Source of the DNA: Kluyveromyces lactis
Taxonomy: Eukaryota > Ascomycota > Saccharomycetes > Saccharomycetales > Saccharomycetaceae
Direction of reading: 5' to 3'
NCBI RefSeq assembly: GCF_000002515.2
Contig: NC_006037.1
Location: 806,001 to 870,000 of the forward strand
Length of the DNA stretch: 64,000 nucleotides
The notes beneath the pieces were generated by a model that ran no database searches, had not been told where the DNA came from, and saw nothing but the letters and a program-made list of their open reading frames with translations. The translations under genes and the position numbers were made by a program. Numbering within the stretch: position 1 is the first letter of the stretch; the number at the start of each line of letters is the position of its first letter. This document shows positions 45,952 through 56,417 of the stretch, one piece after another.

Positions 45952-47625
45952 ATGTCTATAGCAACTTCTGATTATTCACGAATTGATGATAAGGTTTGGC
46001 CAACTGCCAACCGCACTGGTCCCAAGGAGGATCCGTCCAAATACCATTGTACGTATGTGACGAAAAAAGTGGCTCTTGGTGATGGCCATTTCAGCGTGGT
46101 GAAGGAATGTATGAATACAATGACTGGAGATAGATATGCTATGAAACTGGTTCACAAGTCGTTGGTTATGGATAAATTACAGTTGATCCAGAGGGAAGTG
46201 AGTGTTTTGAAGAGAGTAAGTTCATTGATTAGGGAACTCGAGACTTTAAATCAGAAAGTAGCAGGTTCTGGTAGTAATCATGGTGATGTTTTCGAGGGTC
46301 ATCATCACGTTTTGCAACTATTCGATTTCTTTGAGACTTCGAAGAGTATCGTTTTGGTGACGCAGCTATGTGAGTCGGAGGATTTGTACGATAAGATTTT
46401 AAATGCGGGTCATTTGGATCTAGAGACTCAAGTGAAACCGTTTACTGCGTGCTTGTTGAGTGCTTTGCAATTTTTGCACGGTAATGGGATCATTCATCGT
46501 GATCTTAAGGCTGAAAACGTTCTCTTTAGGTTGAAGACCAAGACGAACATGATTGAATTACCTAGGGATGATGCTATGTACGATAAATCGGCTCACGATT
46601 TGATTTTGGCAGATTTTGGTTTGGCTATAAGTACGGAAACTGGTAGTAAAGAGTTTGTCGGAACAATCTCATATTTGGCTCCGGAACTCGTGGCCTGTAA
46701 GAATAGTGGTAAACAGTCTAGTATCCAGAATGGTAGGTTAAAACCATATGGGACAGGTGTAGACGTGTGGGCTCTCGGTGTTCTATGTTATTTCATGGCA
46801 TGTGGGTATATGCCGTTTGATTGTGAAACTGACGCGGAAACTATGGAATATATCGCCAATAGTGATTATTACATGGATGAGGATATGTCCAAAGATGATA
46901 AATATAAACAATTTTGGTCGTTTTTGGAGAAATGTTTCGAGGTGGATATGGATAAAAGAGCTTCTGCGGACGAGTTAAGTGCACATTCGTTCGTATGTCC
47001 GCAATATTTCCCAAACAAGTCACCTACTCCAATTATCGACTCACCAAGGGCACCTGCTCTTAGGGTTTCAAAATCTTCGACTTCTTTGCATAGTCTTGAA
47101 CCACCTTCAAGATCAGCTAGTACTGTTTCCCTAAATCTGAATGAGCCCATGAAACGTTCTGATTCCAGAGAAGTCAATCTAAACAGAATCAGGGAGACGT
47201 TACGTAAAACATTATCGATGACATCAATAAAGAGGGAACCTAATGTGCTGCTAAATGTGCCAAGTGGTAGTAATTCAGCCAATTTCAACAGAGCCAGCTC
47301 TACGTTGAAGTTAGAACCCGAGCCACCAAATGTTGCATTGATGAACGGATGTCTATGCGCTACTCCAGAGTCGTGCTCAAATTTCACCACATCCCCATCA
47401 ATGTCCAGAAATGGATCTAAGAATAACCTTCAAACGGCAATTGGATCATGGAATGAATCTAGCCTTTCGGGACTCAATTCAGGAGCAACTTTAGCCTTTG
47501 ACAGGAATTCCTTCGATTTTACCAAACTGAATAATACATCTTTATCGCCATCGGTACCAACGTCATCTTCTTCAAATGATGCAAGAAAAGATAAGATCGT
47601 TTTCCAACTCGGGGAAGATGACTGA
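45952..47625 (+). CDS. TDA1: Serine/threonine kinase Tda1
   Basis: A 557-residue protein kinase (S. cerevisiae Tda1: 586, YMR291W), a CAMK-type kinase tied to glucose signalling and to hexokinase 2 phosphorylation at Ser15 under low glucose. The kinase domain is about 35-345: Gly-rich loop (LGDGHFSVV), YAMKLVHKS lysine, HRDLKAEN with Asp184, DFG with Asp221, and SYLAPE in the activation segment. The domain carries an insert between the third and fourth strands (SSLIRELETLNQKVAGSGSN). The long C-terminal tail is Ser/Asn-rich and ends FQLGEDD. The start is the ATG at 45952; the frame opens upstream only from a TTG. Confidence 0.93.
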   Translation: MSIATSDYSRIDDKVWPTANRTGPKEDPSKYHCTYVTKKVALGDGHFSVVKECMNTMTGDRYAMKLVHKSLVMDKLQLIQREVSVLKRVSSLIRELETLNQKVAGSGSNHGDVFEGHHHVLQLFDFFETSKSIVLVTQLCESEDLYDKILNAGHLDLETQVKPFTACLLSALQFLHGNGIIHRDLKAENVLFRLKTKTNMIELPRDDAMYDKSAHDLILADFGLAISTETGSKEFVGTISYLAPELVACKNSGKQSSIQNGRLKPYGTGVDVWALGVLCYFMACGYMPFDCETDAETMEYIANSDYYMDEDMSKDDKYKQFWSFLEKCFEVDMDKRASADELSAHSFVCPQYFPNKSPTPIIDSPRAPALRVSKSSTSLHSLEPPSRSASTVSLNLNEPMKRSDSREVNLNRIRETLRKTLSMTSIKREPNVLLNVPSGSNSANFNRASSTLKLEPEPPNVALMNGCLCATPESCSNFTTSPSMSRNGSKNNLQTAIGSWNESSLSGLNSGATLAFDRNSFDFTKLNNTSLSPSVPTSSSSNDARKDKIVFQLGEDD

Positions 47626-48162: not shown

Positions 48163-48900
48163 TCAGTACCTTCTGCCCAAAAGGTTTAAGAATTCTTCTC
48201 TTGTCTTGTGTGATTCTCGCAAGTATCCCAACATACAAGAAGTGACAGTGGAAGAACCAGTTTTTTGGACACCACGAGACACCATACACATATGAGTAGC
48301 CTCGATGACCACAGCGACACCTCTAGGTTTCAAGATATCACTCAAAGCCATAGCAATTTGCTTCGTTAAACGTTCTTGTACTTGGAAACGTCTAGCGTAC
48401 ATCTCTGCTAAACGAGCCAATTTCGATAAACCCAACACCTTCTTATTAGGAATGTATCCAATATGAACTTTACCGAAAAATGGCACCAAATGATGCTCGC
48501 ACAAAGAGAAGATCTCAATGTCACGAACAATAACCATCTCGTCATGATCTTCCTCGAACACAGCATTCTTAATCACATCGTTCATGATATTATCCTGATA
48601 GCCTTTAGTGAAATACAACATCGCTTTAGCGTACCGTGTAGGGGTATCCAGTAAACCCTCACGTTCGGTATCCTCACCGAGCTCACTCAAAATAGTCTTA
48701 ACCGCATCTGCAATACGACCAACCCGTTTTTGTTCTTCTTCATCCGTTTCCTCTGCTCTTTCACGAGCACCAATACTAGGCCATGATAAACCGTCTTTTT
48801 CCACAGTAGGATTTAAGGTATAAGGCGAAGCTGGACGAATGTTCAAAGGAGTAGCACGTCTTTCAATCTGAGAGACGTGCGAGATATGTTTGTTTTCCAT
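48163..48900 (-). CDS. FOL2: GTP cyclohydrolase I
   Basis: A 245-residue enzyme (S. cerevisiae Fol2: 243, YGR267C) converting GTP to dihydroneopterin triphosphate, the first step of folate synthesis. Zinc ligands are visible: Cys134 and His137 in [10 protein letters not shown], and Cys205 in [11 protein letters not shown]. The [21 protein letters not shown] and [13 protein letters not shown] segments are family signatures. The N-terminal about 50 residues are variable, as in other fungi. In the leader region ATGGGTTAC occurs twice, 14 bp apart (48921-48929 and 48935-48943). Confidence 0.98.
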
Positions 48901-49405: not shown

Positions 49406-49999
49406 CTAGTAGGTTGGTCCAGTAAGAATCCTGCCAAGACCGTAGCATACGGGACACGGTTCTTTATCCAAGAAGAATCGTACCCTACCAGTCCCATTGC
49501 AATTGTTACACATCATGCCTCCTATGCGACTGTCACCGGGACGCACAACGATAGGTGCTGAGTTTATGACGAAATTCTGTGGTGGCATCGTGACATTAGA
49601 GTATACGAACGCAGGTCTTGGCCCTGCACTTGGACGTGGTGGTTGTGCAGGTGGGGGTTTGTAGAATTTCGACCAACATTTCTTACATTTTTGTTGAGTC
49701 TTGATCTTGGTGCCAGTGTTCCCGCATTTTTTACAATAATATCCTGGAGGGTACGTCCAGGGTAGTTTCTTATTGCCAGTACTGGTACTGGTACTGCTTG
49801 AAAAGGTACTAGTGGAATGATGGTACGCTGGTATGGCATTGCTTGGCCGGGGCGGTCTTGCTGGTGGTTGTGTTGGACGTGGTGGAGGGTTTGGTGGGAG
49901 CTGCTGCTGCTGCTGCGAAGCAGCAGCAGTATCTTGTCTCAGCACTTCATCATACGACGGAAGATGCTCATCTGGCTGTATATCTGATTCTGATTTCAT
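49406..49999 (-). CDS. HUA1: Zinc-finger protein Hua1
   Basis: A 197-residue orthologue of Hua1 (198 residues, YGR268C), a cytoplasmic protein linked to actin-patch assembly. Layout: an LPSYDEV motif (14-20; LPxY is a variant PY motif of the kind bound by Rsp5 WW domains), an Ala/Gln then Pro-rich region (NPPPRPTQPPARPPRP), a first zinc-binding cluster (YYCKKCG...KCKKCW), a second Pro-rich linker, and a second DnaJ-like cluster MCNNCNGTGR...CPVCYGLG at the C-terminus. A GCT/CAG hairpin encodes the AAASQQQQQ stretch. A related gene lies immediately upstream in tandem. Confidence 0.95.
   Translation of the reverse strand: MKSESDIQPDEHLPSYDEVLRQDTAAASQQQQQLPPNPPPRPTQPPARPPRPSNAIPAYHHSTSTFSSSTSTSTGNKKLPWTYPPGYYCKKCGNTGTKIKTQQKCKKCWSKFYKPPPAQPPRPSAGPRPAFVYSNVTMPPQNFVINSAPIVVRPGDSRIGGMMCNNCNGTGRVRFFLDKEPCPVCYGLGRILTGPTY
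49907..49929. repeat. Self-complementary GCT/CAG repeat hairpin inside HUA1
   Basis: CTGCTGCTGC (49907-49916), GAA, GCAGCAGCAG (49920-49929). On the HUA1 strand this gives an Ala3 run and the start of a Gln5 run from complementary triplet tracts. Trinucleotide tracts of this type are prone to length change. Confidence 0.85.
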
Positions 50000-50552
50000 T
50001 GAAGTATTCTCAAAGTGACTGGTTCTCTGATCTCTGTTCTTTACTGATCCCGATCCCGTTCTCCATACACTTTTCTTTGACTAAATATATGTCCCTTATA
50101 TATCTTGATCTTTTATATATACGTGATTTATTTGGCAGATGCACCTAAAATGAGGAAACCCTATAGCACGACGGCTGCAATGTGGACGAATCCCGATCCT
50201 AAACTGGGCTTTTAGCCATTGATAACTACTGGATGCAGCCAGTGAGTAACTGCGGACTTACAGACAAGGGTCCACTCTTGCCAATGCTCCTACTAATGGT
50301 TCTAATGGGCATCAAAGTCAAAGCCTTGATCAGTTCATGTTACCCGGACCATATATACAAATATCCGGGTAACAAACTCATATCTCTGCTCTGGCGATCT
50401 CATACTACTGACAAAGGAATCTGTCATCAATCAACAGACACCTGAGAGAGACAAGCAACTTCATATGGTTAGGAGTATCTGACTATGGGCGTTGCAATGC
50501 TAATATAAATTAAATTATTTACCTGGGTGTACATGTTATGTAGAATCTCTTC
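50000..50552. other. HUA1 upstream region
   Basis: 553 bp between HUA1 and the HUA1-like gene, with no other gene seen. It contains the inverted Reb1-site pair at 50338-50374. The stretch around 50316-50348 is visibly homologous to 51270-51299 upstream of the HUA1-like gene, so the duplication included promoter sequence. Confidence 0.7.
50338..50374. promoter_or_regulatory. Inverted pair of Reb1-type sites, HUA1 promoter
   Basis: TGTTACCCGGA (50338-50348) and TCCGGGTAACA (50364-50374) are exact complements with 15 bp between. Each contains TTACCCG, the Reb1 core. The pair is about 340-375 bp upstream of the HUA1 ATG. Confidence 0.7.
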
Positions 50553-51008
50553 CTAATCCGTTGCATGGGCGGCATGGCTGGCATGGCTGGCATTGCTGAC
50601 ATGTTTACCCAAATGCTTTACTACAGCTACACCTAAGAGCACAACTGTGAGTATAAGACCACGTCTTGCTGGAAACTGCCTTCTATTGAATCTTGACCAA
50701 CATGTTCTACACCTGCGTTGCGTCCTGGTCTCTACACCGGTGTTCCCGCACCTTCTACAGTAATACCATGGAGGATACGTCCAGGGAAGCTGGTCGATAT
50801 CAGTACCGGTATTGCAGCTACTGGTAGTGGTGGAATTGGTGGCATTATTTGGTATATCATTGGACGCATCATTTGATTCGTCATTTGGTTCATCATTTGG
50901 TTCATCATTTGATGCCTCTTGATGCCGAGAAGCACCGGTAGACGAACCTTGTCCGACTGCTTCGTCATACGACGGAAGAATACCTGATTGTTTAACTGAC
51001 GCTGCCAT
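50553..51008 (-). CDS. HUA1-like tandem duplicate with putative membrane tail
   Basis: A 151-residue intact frame directly upstream of HUA1 on the same strand. It shares the ILPSYDEAVGQ motif near the N-terminus (HUA1: HLPSYDEVLRQ) and the core LPWTYPPWYYCRRCGNTG...CRTCWSRF (HUA1: LPWTYPPGYYCKKCGNTG...CKKCWSKF), so one zinc cluster is kept. The Pro-rich spacer is replaced by a repetitive acidic run (NDEPNDEPNDESNDAS). The second DnaJ-like zinc finger is missing; instead there is a short hydrophobic segment GLILTVVLLGVAVV flanked by Arg and Lys, then a His/Ala/Ser tail from a 9-bp repeat (SHASHAAHATD). It may be a tail-anchored protein. The ATG at 51008 is the first in frame. There is no counterpart in the S. 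cerevisiae HUA1 region. Function unknown. Confidence 0.8.
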   Translation of the reverse strand: MAASVKQSGILPSYDEAVGQGSSTGASRHQEASNDEPNDEPNDESNDASNDIPNNATNSTTTSSCNTGTDIDQLPWTYPPWYYCRRCGNTGVETRTQRRCRTCWSRFNRRQFPARRGLILTVVLLGVAVVKHLGKHVSNASHASHAAHATD

Positions 51009-51289
51009 TATAGAATGTTGGGTCACGTGCCTAACAGCCAACGGCTCCTTCCAACCTTTCTTCCATGCATCTAGTTAGACATCTGGCTTATGCGTGTCTT
51101 ATATATCCATGACTCGTCTAGCAGATGAGTGAACCATCATATCCACGCAATAACATGCAAATCCACGGCTCTAAGGTGGAAAAAGGAACCCTAAATGGTG
51201 TATAGTAATGGTGGCTTCAAGGGTATAAACCATTGGACTTAATAGCAACGGCCGGTAAATTTGCTGATTCAAAGCCTCGAACGATTTTC

Positions 51290-51319
51290 GTTACCCGGAA
51301 AACACAATGACCGGGTAAC
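51290..51319. promoter_or_regulatory. Inverted pair of Reb1-type sites, HUA1-like/GOT1 promoter
   Basis: GTTACCCGG (51290-51298) and CCGGGTAAC (51311-51319) are exact complements with a 12-bp spacer. The left flank TCAAAGCCTCGA (51269-51280) matches TCAAAGCCTTGA (50318-50329) beside the HUA1 pair, showing common origin. Confidence 0.7.
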
Positions 51320-51478: not shown

Positions 51479-52089
51479 ATGAGTAGTTGGCTATCGGAGT
51501 CACAGCGTATGTTAAACCATGTATGCGTTTACTATTATTTTTGGTTTCCCTTTACTAACATTTGTTATTTGAGATCGGCCAGTAAACTCATGCGAACATA
51601 AGGGAAATAGAAAGACGGATTGTTCAATCCGTCTTTCTATCTCACTTTTGTTACAGTACTTGCCAAAATCTTGAAATCCCACTTATCTCCCCAGAATTCG
51701 GTGCTGTGTTCACGTTCGGTGGATGTTTGTTCTTCCTTTTTGGTATCTTCACCTTCTTCGATAGAGCACTATTGGCTGTTGGGAACATCTTGTTCCTACT
51801 CGGCGTGCTGCTGATGATAGGCCCACACAAGACTCTCAAATTCTTCACTAGACCGACAAAGAGACGTGGGACCTTGTTTCTCGTGTTTGGGATATTCATG
51901 ATCTTATGTAAGTGGACGTTCCTTGGGTTCATCATCGAATCGTTAGGTATAGTCGGTCTATTCGGCGACTTTTTCGGCGTGATCCTCCAATTGCTGAGGT
52001 CCATTCCTATAATCGGACCAGTACTGTCTCACCCTACCATTGCACCAGTCCTAGACCGTATAGCTGGTGTGTCAGTGCTTCCTGTGTGA
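51479..52089 (+). CDS. GOT1: Golgi vesicle-transport protein Got1 (two exons)
   Basis: Exon 1 is 51479-51506 and exon 2 is 51695-52089; splicing gives 140 residues (S. cerevisiae Got1: 138, YMR292W, also with an intron near its 5' end). Exon 1 encodes MSSWLSESQ plus one base; the junction codon CAA and exon 2 restore [10 protein letters not shown], matching the family. About four membrane segments follow ([58 protein letters not shown] and [18 protein letters not shown]). The end [10 protein letters not shown] is near-identical to S. cerevisiae. Got1 acts in ER-Golgi and early Golgi membrane traffic. The intron (51507-51694, 188 nt) has GTATGT at 51507, TACTAAC at 51553-51559 and a CAG 3' end at 51692-51694. 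Confidence 0.93.
51607..51640 (+). repeat. Perfect 16-bp hairpin (2-nt loop) within the GOT1 intron
   Basis: ATAGAAAGACGGATTG (51607-51622), TT, CAATCCGTCTTTCTAT (51625-51640). It sits between the branch point (A51558) and the 3' splice site (51694), folding out 34 nt and burying two AG dinucleotides. Confidence 0.93.
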
Positions 52090-52457: not shown

Positions 52458-55400
52458 ATGACGCTCCATAGCAAGAGCGGTGACGATGAATCTGGCACTC
52501 ATACTGAGTTTTACGATGATAATGGGATTGCTCATACCACACCGAGGCTGCTGAAAAAAGTTAACTACGCAGAGATTGAGAATGGTTACGATTATATCGA
52601 GGAATCTGATACGAATTCTGGAGGAACAGCCGCCGTTGGTGCTAACTATTCAGATACCGGTACTGGTAGGCGTCGTGGTAGGCGTCCCGGTCAGAGGAAC
52701 AAGAGGGTTCGTGATGATGACGACGATGATGACGTTTCGTTCCACGAGGAAGATGTAGACGATGATGACGATGACGACGACGATGTTGATGACGGCGATG
52801 AGTATATCGACCCAGCAGATGATCGCAAACGGATAGCGAGAAGAAGAGATAAAAATTTCATTGTCAAGGACGATGAGGATGGATCTGATGGGAATGAAGA
52901 TTATAGTATCAAGGAAGAGGATCTGGATGAAGATGAAGATGATGGAGATGAGGATGAAGAGGATGACGATGGTACTGTGAGACGTGGAAGAAGACCAAAA
53001 CGGTCTGCAGCAAGAAGTACGCGTAGGGAACAGCCTCCTCGGAAGTTAAGGCCGCATAGAACCAGATCGTCTCGTGTTGTAGATGACGATGAAGACGACG
53101 ATGATACGGTAGGTAGCGGTCGTCATAGATCGGCAAGTGCACGTACTAGAGAAGCGCTTACACTTGAGGACGAAATTAGAGAATTACAGGAGGACAGTCC
53201 TATCAGAGAGAAAAGGTCTTTGAGAGAACGTACAAAACCAGTAAATTACACGATCCCACCACCTTTGTCTGAAAATCAAATTGGTGCTATGGAAGCTACT
53301 TCGGTGCCAGGAATACCTCCAGGAACACTTCCATACCAATCATCCGTTTATCAGTCCCCAAGAGGTAAACGTGGTTTACATTCGGGTCAAAGTTTTGGAC
53401 CTATTAGAAGGTTATTCCCTACCGGTGGTCCATTTGGTGGAAACGATGTTACGGCGATATTTGGTAAAAACGTTCAATTCTACAACTCTAATCCAAACGC
53501 TCTAAACGAACAGTCAAACAAATTTTTGGATTCTGATTCATCCGATGACGAAATCTTAGCTTTGGGTATGAAACCGAAACCAAAGGATCCATCAAAACAA
53601 AAGAAGAAAAAGAAACCGGAAATTGCAGATTTGGACCCACTTGGTGTCGATATGAACATTAATTTTGATGATGTCGGTGGTCTAGATAACTACATTGACC
53701 AATTAAAGGAGATGGTGGCATTGCCATTGTTGTACCCAGAACTTTATCAAAACTTCAATATTACTCCACCTCGTGGTGTCTTGTTCCATGGCCCACCAGG
53801 TACAGGTAAGACTTTGATGGCTAGAGCATTGGCCGCAAGTTGCTCAAATGAGAAGAGAAAGATCACTTTCTTCATGAGGAAGGGTGCTGACATTCTTTCC
53901 AAATGGGTTGGTGAAGCTGAAAGACAATTAAGGTTATTGTTTGAAGAAGCAAAGAAACATCAACCGGCAATCATTTTCTTTGATGAAATTGATGGGTTGG
54001 CTCCAGTTAGATCTTCCAAACAGGAACAAATCCATGCCAGTATCGTGTCGACAATGTTGGCATTGATGGATGGTATGGATAATAGAGGTCAGATTATTAT
54101 AATCGGTGCTACGAATAGACCAGATGCAGTGGATCCTGCTTTAAGAAGACCAGGTAGATTTGACCGTGAGTTCTATTTCCCTCTACCAGACTTGAAGGCT
54201 AGAGATAAAATTTTGCATATTCACACCAAGAAATGGAATCCACCTATTTCAGATCAATTTATTTCAAAGCTAGCCTCCTTAACTAAAGGATACGGTGGTG
54301 CTGACTTAAGAGCACTTTGTACAGAAGCATCTTTGATCAGTATCCAAAGAAAGTTTCCACAAATCTATAAAAGTGAAGAAAAGCTAAAGATTGATCCTAA
54401 ATCAGTTAGAGTCAAGGCTAGAGACTTCATGCTTGCACTAGAAAAGATTGTACCATCATCTGCTAGAGCTACTGGCTCTACAGCGCAGCCTTTACCAAAA
54501 TATGTTGAACCGCTCCTCGCTCAACAATTTATTAACGTCAAGGATCAGCTCAACTTACTACTACCCAAGCAAAGCACAAAATTGAAATCGGGTTCCTCCA
54601 TTATTCAATATTACTTAGAAAATGAGGATCTTGAGGATTCTGATGACGAAGAAGGTACTGGATTCGATAAGCATGAATTTTTAAAACTTATCAAGAAATC
54701 TCGTGTCTGCAAACCGAAACTTTTGATCACAGGCCCGCCCGGTAACGGGTTACAATATATCGCTTCCGCCACACTACACTTTTTGGAAGATTACAATATT
54801 CAAATGCTTGACATTCCTACCTTGGTATCGGAGAGTAGTAGAACGATGGAAGCAGCACTTGTACAAACATTCGCGGAGGCTAAGAAGCGTCAACCCTCTG
54901 TAATTTGCATACCAAACTTAGAATTATGGCTCCAAGCCTGTCCCCAAAGTTGTCTCATCACTTTAACCACTCTTTTCAGATCATTGCAGAGTAATGAAAA
55001 CGTGGTTTTACTAGCTATCGCTGACGGCTTATCTCGCGCTGAAATTGAGGACGGTCCACTTGCAATGTTTTCCTTTGGGCCCAACATAGTGAACATTAAC
55101 GAACCCTCCCCTCATCAAAGGTTTATGTATTTCAAAACCGTAGCTGATCTTATTAAGATGAAACCGACTCAATACATTGAATCGAGGAAAAGGAAGAAGC
55201 CACTTCCAAAATTACCTGTCGTCGAAACCTCACAGGAAATAGATGAGAATGGCAGACTTTTAACAGAAGAGGAGAAATTGAGACTGGAATTGAAAAAGTT
55301 CCAACACCAAGACATGAAATTAAAGAACACCTTGAAAATAAAGCTTTCTGGTTTAATGGATCTTTTCAAGAATCGTTACAAGAGGTTCAGGAAACCTCCT

Positions 55401-56417
55401 ATTGATGATACGTTCTTGATTCACTTATTTGAGCCTGAAACCTTTGCTGCCAACCAAGGCTGGCAACCTGCTTATGTAAAGGACGGCGATATGATTCTCG
55501 AAGTTGCTACTGGTAGAAAATTCTATAACATGGATTTGGATATTATCGAAGAGAGATTATGGAATGGTTATTACTCTGAGCCGAAACAATTCCTAAAAGA
55601 TATCGAGTTGATTTATCTTGATGCTACCACATCAGCGGACAGAGAAAGAGTAATAAAGGCATCTGAAATGTTTGCTAATGCACAAGTCGGCATCGAAGAT
55701 ATCTCGCAACCAGAATTTGTTGCAGAATGCAAAGCCACACGCCAAAGAGAACTTCTAAGACAAGAATTATTTATAAAGGAAAAAAGTGAACGAGTGGATA
55801 AGGAACAACAAATACTTTTGCAGAACAATCCAACTCAAACTGATTCGATCGCTACAGTTGAACTAACTACCGCCTCAGGAAACCAAGTGCAGTCTCAGGC
55901 TCAATTAGATGCGGGTACACTAGATCTAGGTGAAACGTCTCAAGTAGAGCCATTCACAACACAGCCTGTGAACTTTGGAACCAATGATGCTGATTTGGCA
56001 AAAACGGACACTGTTCAAGATTATTCGGAGAGCAGGCTTACCAATGCGGAAAATGGCTTTGCTCAGACTAGTCACAATAATTCGCATTTAACTGTTGATA
56101 CTGAAGATGCAACTAATAAGGAGCAGGAAAAGCAACCACCGAGCGTCACTGAAGCTGAAGTAGAACCAGAAGCTCAATCAGAACCAGAACCAGAGTCAGA
56201 ACCAGAGTCAGAATTAGAACCAGAACCAGAATTCGTCTACGATGAATCTAGAGCTCTCTCTTTGATCTCTGCTCTGGAAAAAAATACACAAAACTTCACA
56301 GTAGAGAAACTAGAAGAAGTTTATGCATCCATAGCCAACGTCATCTGGAACAATAGACTTTCATGGGACAAAACGGATGCTCTCGATCAGTTAGAAGGGC
56401 TTATCAAGACTTTATAA
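52458..56417 (+). CDS. YTA7: AAA+ ATPase with bromodomain Yta7 (ATAD2)
   Basis: A 1319-residue chromatin ATPase (S. cerevisiae Yta7: 1379, YGR270W) that disassembles nucleosomes, lowers H3 occupancy and acts as a boundary factor at histone genes and silent chromatin. The N-terminus (1 to about 260) alternates Asp/Glu runs with basic RRGRRP patches. AAA1 is active: Walker A GPPGTGKT (445-452), Walker B IIFFDEID (Asp509, Glu510) and the RRPGRFDREF arginine-finger helix. AAA2 is degenerate (ITGPPGNGLQ near 757, lacking the Lys-Thr). The bromodomain-like region is about 960-1090. A Glu/Pro repeat (EPEPESEPESELEPEPEF) lies near the C-terminus. Confidence 0.97.
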   Translation: MTLHSKSGDDESGTHTEFYDDNGIAHTTPRLLKKVNYAEIENGYDYIEESDTNSGGTAAVGANYSDTGTGRRRGRRPGQRNKRVRDDDDDDDVSFHEEDVDDDDDDDDDVDDGDEYIDPADDRKRIARRRDKNFIVKDDEDGSDGNEDYSIKEEDLDEDEDDGDEDEEDDDGTVRRGRRPKRSAARSTRREQPPRKLRPHRTRSSRVVDDDEDDDDTVGSGRHRSASARTREALTLEDEIRELQEDSPIREKRSLRERTKPVNYTIPPPLSENQIGAMEATSVPGIPPGTLPYQSSVYQSPRGKRGLHSGQSFGPIRRLFPTGGPFGGNDVTAIFGKNVQFYNSNPNALNEQSNKFLDSDSSDDEILALGMKPKPKDPSKQKKKKKPEIADLDPLGVDMNINFDDVGGLDNYIDQLKEMVALPLLYPELYQNFNITPPRGVLFHGPPGTGKTLMARALAASCSNEKRKITFFMRKGADILSKWVGEAERQLRLLFEEAKKHQPAIIFFDEIDGLAPVRSSKQEQIHASIVSTMLALMDGMDNRGQIIIIGATNRPDAVDPALRRPGRFDREFYFPLPDLKARDKILHIHTKKWNPPISDQFISKLASLTKGYGGADLRALCTEASLISIQRKFPQIYKSEEKLKIDPKSVRVKARDFMLALEKIVPSSARATGSTAQPLPKYVEPLLAQQFINVKDQLNLLLPKQSTKLKSGSSIIQYYLENEDLEDSDDEEGTGFDKHEFLKLIKKSRVCKPKLLITGPPGNGLQYIASATLHFLEDYNIQMLDIPTLVSESSRTMEAALVQTFAEAKKRQPSVICIPNLELWLQACPQSCLITLTTLFRSLQSNENVVLLAIADGLSRAEIEDGPLAMFSFGPNIVNINEPSPHQRFMYFKTVADLIKMKPTQYIESRKRKKPLPKLPVVETSQEIDENGRLLTEEEKLRLELKKFQHQDMKLKNTLKIKLSGLMDLFKNRYKRFRKPPIDDTFLIHLFEPETFAANQGWQPAYVKDGDMILEVATGRKFYNMDLDIIEERLWNGYYSEPKQFLKDIELIYLDATTSADRERVIKASEMFANAQVGIEDISQPEFVAECKATRQRELLRQELFIKEKSERVDKEQQILLQNNPTQTDSIATVELTTASGNQVQSQAQLDAGTLDLGETSQVEPFTTQPVNFGTNDADLAKTDTVQDYSESRLTNAENGFAQTSHNNSHLTVDTEDATNKEQEKQPPSVTEAEVEPEAQSEPEPESEPESELEPEPEFVYDESRALSLISALEKNTQNFTVEKLEEVYASIANVIWNNRLSWDKTDALDQLEGLIKTL

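Follow-up and report, generated by a model that had tools for sequence, protein, structure and literature searches.

In the 64,000-nucleotide stretch of Kluyveromyces lactis DNA analysed here (the window), the gene at 50553..51008, hereafter DUP, is best explained as a frameshifted duplicate of the adjoining HUA1 whose product would act as a membrane-tethered adaptor of Rsp5 or as a competitor of Hua1, a reading drawn from sequence to which we assign a probability of roughly 0.4. Its parts differ in strength: an origin of DUP by duplication plus frameshift is highly probable, the odds that the protein, if expressed, associates with a membrane are about even, and a role as Rsp5 adaptor or competitor is proposed tentatively. 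The two genes are placed as follows:

50553..51008, minus strand: DUP, tandem HUA1 paralogue; intact open reading frame of 151 codons, from ATG to TAG
49406..49999, minus strand: HUA1, 197 aa; the two Cys clusters and the Pro-rich linkers are all present

Judged by its sequence, DUP arose from HUA1 by tandem duplication, as the first-pass annotation had proposed, and the event is an old one: LPSYDE is common to both, and across the first zinc cluster, (Q/K)LPWTYPP-x-YYC..CGNTG...C..CWS(R/K)F, BLASTP matched 22 of 37 residues as identical, with close alignment of the DNA around LPSYDE and LPWTYPP. HUA1 itself matched PF00684 with an E of 8.2e-06, weaker than Pfam's cut-off. In a tree built from 35 columns and 61 rows, which was weakly resolved and unsettled in its bootstrap, DUP and the HUA1 of this genome were grouped with a support of 99/85; the end branch of HUA1 had zero length, and that of DUP (with the database protein P0001) was long, at 2.01. 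Over the 36 codons of finger 1 (21 synonymous sites), comparison of the paralogues gave a dN of 0.21 and a dS of 1.6, the latter near saturation. Searches of the K. lactis genome (10,729,447 bases, 7 contigs) with the DUP or HUA1 protein as query, at thresholds of E<=0.001 and E<=10, revealed no third locus among the best-scoring candidates.

The duplicated unit probably took in upstream DNA as well, since matching inverted pairs of the heptamers TTACCCG and CGGGTAA, presumably Reb1-like, stand upstream of both genes, and the DNA around them aligned with a score of 35, compared with a maximum of 31 among 300 shuffles. Ten such heptamers occur in the window, 4 of which make up these two pairs, the sole ones of their kind:

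50340..50372, no strand assigned: inverted pair TTACCCG...CGGGTAA upstream of HUA1
51291..51318, no strand assigned: its counterpart upstream of DUP, likewise TTACCCG...CGGGTAA

Separately, a CACGTG box that we take to be Cbf1-like (GGTCACGTGC, at 51021-51030) lies at most 25 nt upstream of the DUP start codon. The neighbouring genes are:

45952-47625, plus strand: protein kinase gene (PF00069, E 8.6e-49)
48163-48900, minus strand: GTP cyclohydrolase I gene, FOL2-like (E 6e-76)
51479-52089, plus strand: spliced GOT1-like gene (Got1 family, E 3.4e-07 over the last 91 residues)
52458-56417, plus strand: AAA/bromodomain gene, 1319 aa, presumably YTA7-like

The intron of the GOT1-like gene (51507-51694, plus strand) carries a TACTAAC branch site at 51553, and the branch A is separated from the 3' splice site by 136 nt with six AGs within; a 15-bp hairpin (51607-51640) between the two sites may allow the splicing machinery to pass the early AGs.

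The HUA1 protein ends in ...CNNCNGTGRVRFFLDKEPCPVCYGLGRILTGPTY. A readable second, DnaJ-like finger was not found in the DUP protein, and translation of the 3' end in all frames uncovered it as an out-of-frame fossil, which the first-pass annotation had missed; the loss claimed by that annotation is supported, with the finger missing from the protein and legible in another frame:

50536..50601, minus strand: fossil of finger 2, which the old frame spells as CQQCQPCQPCRPCNGLGRDST and then a stop
50605..50607, minus strand: TAA immediately ahead of the fossil finger and in frame with it
50556..50618, minus strand: C-terminal tail of DUP, KHLGKHVSNASHASHAAHATD; from about VSNAS onward it is the old finger read in a shifted frame

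In a scan of the window in six frames (127,924 positions) with PCPVCYGLGRILT of HUA1, HUA1 itself scored 77, the fossil PCRPCNGLGRDST 40 and the next position 27; a position-specific matrix made from 46 distinct family segments gave 34.0 for HUA1, 19.5 for the fossil and 10.6 for the next position outside HUA1, and with a whole-domain HMM run on all frames of the window the fossil finger ranked only fourth (E 2.2). The linker that runs from finger 1 up to the first Cys of finger 2 measures 86 nt in DUP and 153 nt in HUA1, lengths that are unequal modulo 3, and finger 2 is therefore out of frame in DUP. The present frame of DUP is +1 relative to the fossil finger, and its TAG stop (50553-50555) shortly precedes the old one; the Cys spacing of the fossil is contracted. 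In ten codons of the old frame, a stretch picked for its likeness to HUA1 and hence with counts that are suggestive at most, there were 6 synonymous changes at 7.5 sites and 5 non-synonymous changes at 22.5 sites, and this mostly synonymous change suggests that finger 2 was retained for some time after the duplication and that the frameshift came later.

It had also been claimed that the finger was swapped for a new tail. This fails for the end of the tail, which is the finger's own DNA read in another frame, and could hold for the hydrophobic stretch, for which no DNA match in HUA1 could be demonstrated. Alignments of the DUP linker and tail DNA with HUA1 were no better than those of shuffled sequences, 262 of 1000 (local) and 207 of 1000 (global) of which scored as high. 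Codon adaptation over codons 110-151 was 0.598 in the current frame vs 0.591 and 0.523 in the other two, and 0.675 over codons 1-109 of DUP; the frame now in use does not stand out in the tail, a point against the preferred reading.

The landmarks named in the first-pass annotation (shared LPSYDE and zinc cluster, acidic repeat, hydrophobic span flanked by Arg and Lys, His/Ala/Ser tail) can all be seen in the open reading frame. Those ahead of the hydrophobic span, together with the PPWY motif that the annotation had missed, are:

50967..50978, minus strand: LPSY at residue 11, an LPxY-type PY motif that may bind Rsp5
50856..50912, minus strand: acidic tandem repeat SNDEPNDEPNDESNDASND where HUA1 has a Pro-rich linker; 4 residues shorter in the database protein P0002
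50763..50774, minus strand: PPWY, a PPxY-type PY motif directly before the zinc cluster
50700..50759, minus strand: first zinc cluster CRRC...CRTC, kept in DUP

The cluster has the form typical of the HUA1 family (CxxC-N-T-G...CxxCW), and in both genes a second PY-type motif stands immediately ahead of it, PPWY in DUP and PPGY in HUA1. An [LP]PxY motif was present within the first 80 residues of 79 of the 81 database proteins fetched, the exceptions being P0074 and P0079, and PPxY immediately ahead of the first CxxC in 10 of the 81, including P0001 and P0002. PxxP motifs number 0 in DUP vs 8 in HUA1. The AlphaFold2 model of DUP (25 sequences) had a mean pLDDT of 54, with the zinc-cluster block at 80-90.

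In tail-anchored proteins, one hydrophobic span lies no more than about 30 residues from the C-terminus; the candidate in DUP is 21 residues from the end:

50619..50660, minus strand: hydrophobic stretch GLILTVVLLGVAVV, 14 residues, candidate tail anchor

RRQFPARR stands before it and KHLGKH directly behind, the whole segment behind it containing two Lys, five His and one Asp, and its Kyte-Doolittle means are 3.18 over 13 residues, 2.93 over 14, 2.47 over 15 and 1.84 over 19. For comparison we took 441 stop-free segments, 44-129 codons long, from the six frames of the window, a set that may include real exons, and examined the final 44 residues of each: the 15-residue mean was reached by 13 of them and the 14-residue mean by 3, which is above chance and not extreme. 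Among 83 rows (81 database proteins, DUP and HUA1), a 15-residue mean above 2.4 was found only in DUP, P0001 and P0002, and the AlphaFold2 model places a helix at residues 118-133 with a pLDDT of about 50. Taken from sequence and model, the tail anchor suggested by the first-pass annotation is possible.

Comparison with other K. lactis records bears on the foremost rival, namely that DUP is a decaying relic which lost finger 2 by frameshift, its open reading frame being the shifted frame up to the next stop, its stretch without a role and its product unstable; we regard this as a serious, though not a probable, explanation. The loss of finger 2 and of the Pro-rich linkers, the long branch of DUP next to the zero-length one of HUA1, and the 13 of 441 segments of comparable hydrophobicity all fit such a relic, as do P0075 and P0077, two HUA1 homologues from single-member database entries, in which finger 2 is lost to shifted reading before the same finger, +1 too on our reading of the protein letters, and which have fairly hydrophobic ends (15-residue means of 1.30 and 2.09); their frameshifts may be sequence or assembly errors rather than real alleles. 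Against decay, finger 1 has a dN well under its dS between the paralogues, and the reading frame is uninterrupted in the window as well as in P0001 and P0002. Absence of the gene or stop codons in sister taxa, which the first-pass annotation had named as evidence against it, was not seen in one diverged K. lactis record, P0002.

In named K. lactis records, HUA1 is 98% identical (P0003) and DUP 91% (P0002). Between DUP and P0002, residues 1-34 showed 3 changes and 1 deletion and residues 35-72 4 changes and 4 deletions (7 of 67 aligned residues changed over 1-72), whereas 0 of 37 changed in residues 73-109 and 0 of 36 in residues 116-151, the stretch and tail (0 of 73 together); residues 110-115 held one change, at residue 114. 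As a neutral rate we assumed 4.6%, from the published 95.4% genome-wide identity of two K. lactis varieties (PMC6926475), with P0002 taken to represent the second variety. At this rate, 3.7 changes would be expected in residues 116-151 and 0 were seen (P(0) 0.024), and HUA1 showed 4 changes in 197 residues where 21 were expected; conversely, residues 1-72 of DUP changed at about the assumed rate (7 seen, 7.7 expected), as a relic would. Fisher tests gave P 0.024 for residues 73-151 and P 0.093 for residues 116-151, each against residues 1-72. These counts of protein changes, as distinct from dN/dS, hint at constraint on the stretch and tail.

P0001 differs from the DUP of the window by one residue, R to G in finger 1, and has 11 extra N-terminal residues (MAVRHVTQHSI); positions 51009-51041 of the window (minus strand) form an open frame starting with TTG, and the extension may represent a strain difference in start codon or the use of TTG by a gene caller. 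A profile search, which scored the 7,992 candidates with the most words in common, returned no DUP-like tail beyond K. lactis-like entries and no other named Kluyveromyces.

The preferred reading, a membrane-tethered adaptor or competitor, starts from the function of Hua1, whose Pro-rich part is taken by the SH3 domain of Hse1. In this account, an old tandem copy of HUA1 has lost its Pro-rich (PxxP) linkers and undergone a net frameshift ahead of the second, DnaJ-like Cys finger, whose remains are now read in the +1 frame as a His/Ala/Ser tail with the 14-residue hydrophobic stretch before it. The protein, if made, would be a tail-anchored one that enters the membrane after translation and keeps its N-terminal part in the cytosol, with the basic RRQFPARR before the stretch and the K/H-rich segment behind; its target could be the mitochondrial outer membrane or the ER. 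LPSY and PPWY would then be presented to the WW domains of Rsp5, and DUP would serve as a membrane-tethered Rsp5 adaptor or a Hua1 competitor, recruitment through SH3 domains being lost. According to a review, Hua1 carries PY motifs and serves Rsp5 as an adaptor, without which Rup1-Rsp5-Ubp2 is not linked to Hse1, a protein of ESCRT-0 (PMC9105457); this, together with the retained LPSY and PPWY, makes the role, which the first-pass annotation had also put forward, more plausible. Another source gives PPxY/LPxY as the preference of Rsp5 (PMC9892010). The stronger claim, that the frameshift turned the finger end of a duplicate of a soluble Rsp5/ESCRT adaptor into a selected membrane anchor replacing SH3-mediated recruitment, we consider unlikely.

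A working soluble paralogue, in which finger 1 and the PY motifs compete with Hua1 for Rsp5 and the tail is a degron or inert, would agree with the retention of finger 1 and both PY motifs and with the shortness of the stretch; the tail is, however, identical in P0002 while the N-terminal part varies, and we judge this explanation improbable. Far less credible is that a foreign membrane-anchor piece was acquired or that the gene fused to an unrelated one: no DNA match to the hydrophobic stretch could be demonstrated in HUA1, but the fossil HUA1 finger lies directly behind it, and any foreign insert is therefore small at most. A longer isoform in which splicing or programmed frameshifting restores the second finger would draw on a finger still spelled in the old frame with its own stop, but the TAA ahead of it, its contracted Cys spacing and a loose scan of the reading frame, which gave one motif resembling a donor (offset 38) and another resembling a branch site (offset 205), neither of them near the finger, leave this with almost no credence.

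If the tail of DUP is under selection, it would offer a legible case of a localisation mode changed by a frameshift after duplication, in a tractable yeast with population genomes (42 strains in the population figure of PMC9897184), and the network of Rsp5 adaptors would gain a member tethered to a membrane. As a relic, DUP would show the product of the shifted frame at this finger, like P0075 and P0077.

Compared with known systems, DUP resembles Hua1 (S. cerevisiae YGR268C and homologues) in its LPxY/PPxY motifs near the N-terminus, in a first zinc cluster after a PWxYP-type lead, and in its position near FOL2 and the YTA7-like AAA/bromodomain gene, a FOL2/HUA1/YTA7-like neighbourhood that we take to be syntenic with that of S. 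cerevisiae; unlike Hua1, it has neither PxxP motifs nor a readable second finger, and its C-terminus is newly hydrophobic. Tre1/2, Rcr1/2, Ear1, Ssh4 and Sna3 are membrane proteins, and DUP, like these and Bsd2, would join a membrane span to PY motifs; unlike them, its layout would be tail-anchored, and the likeness is drawn by features and not by sequence. The review lists all of them as PY adaptors of Rsp5 and describes Bsd2 as a membrane protein (PMC9105457). Like tail-anchored proteins such as Fis1 (PMC5214336), DUP has one hydrophobic stretch close to its C-terminus and a basic element after it, while differing from them in a stretch of 14 residues with the Lys, His and Asp counts given above behind it; in the Fis1 constructs described there, a charge of +3 behind the span lowered ER localisation, and at +4 specificity for mitochondria was complete. 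Finally, as in YBR196C-A, for which a de novo transmembrane segment from sequence not selected for it is reported (PMC7005711), the hydrophobic segment of DUP lies in newly exposed coding sequence; unlike that case, it belongs to an old duplicate, where it adjoins the shifted frame and is fused to a conserved adaptor module.
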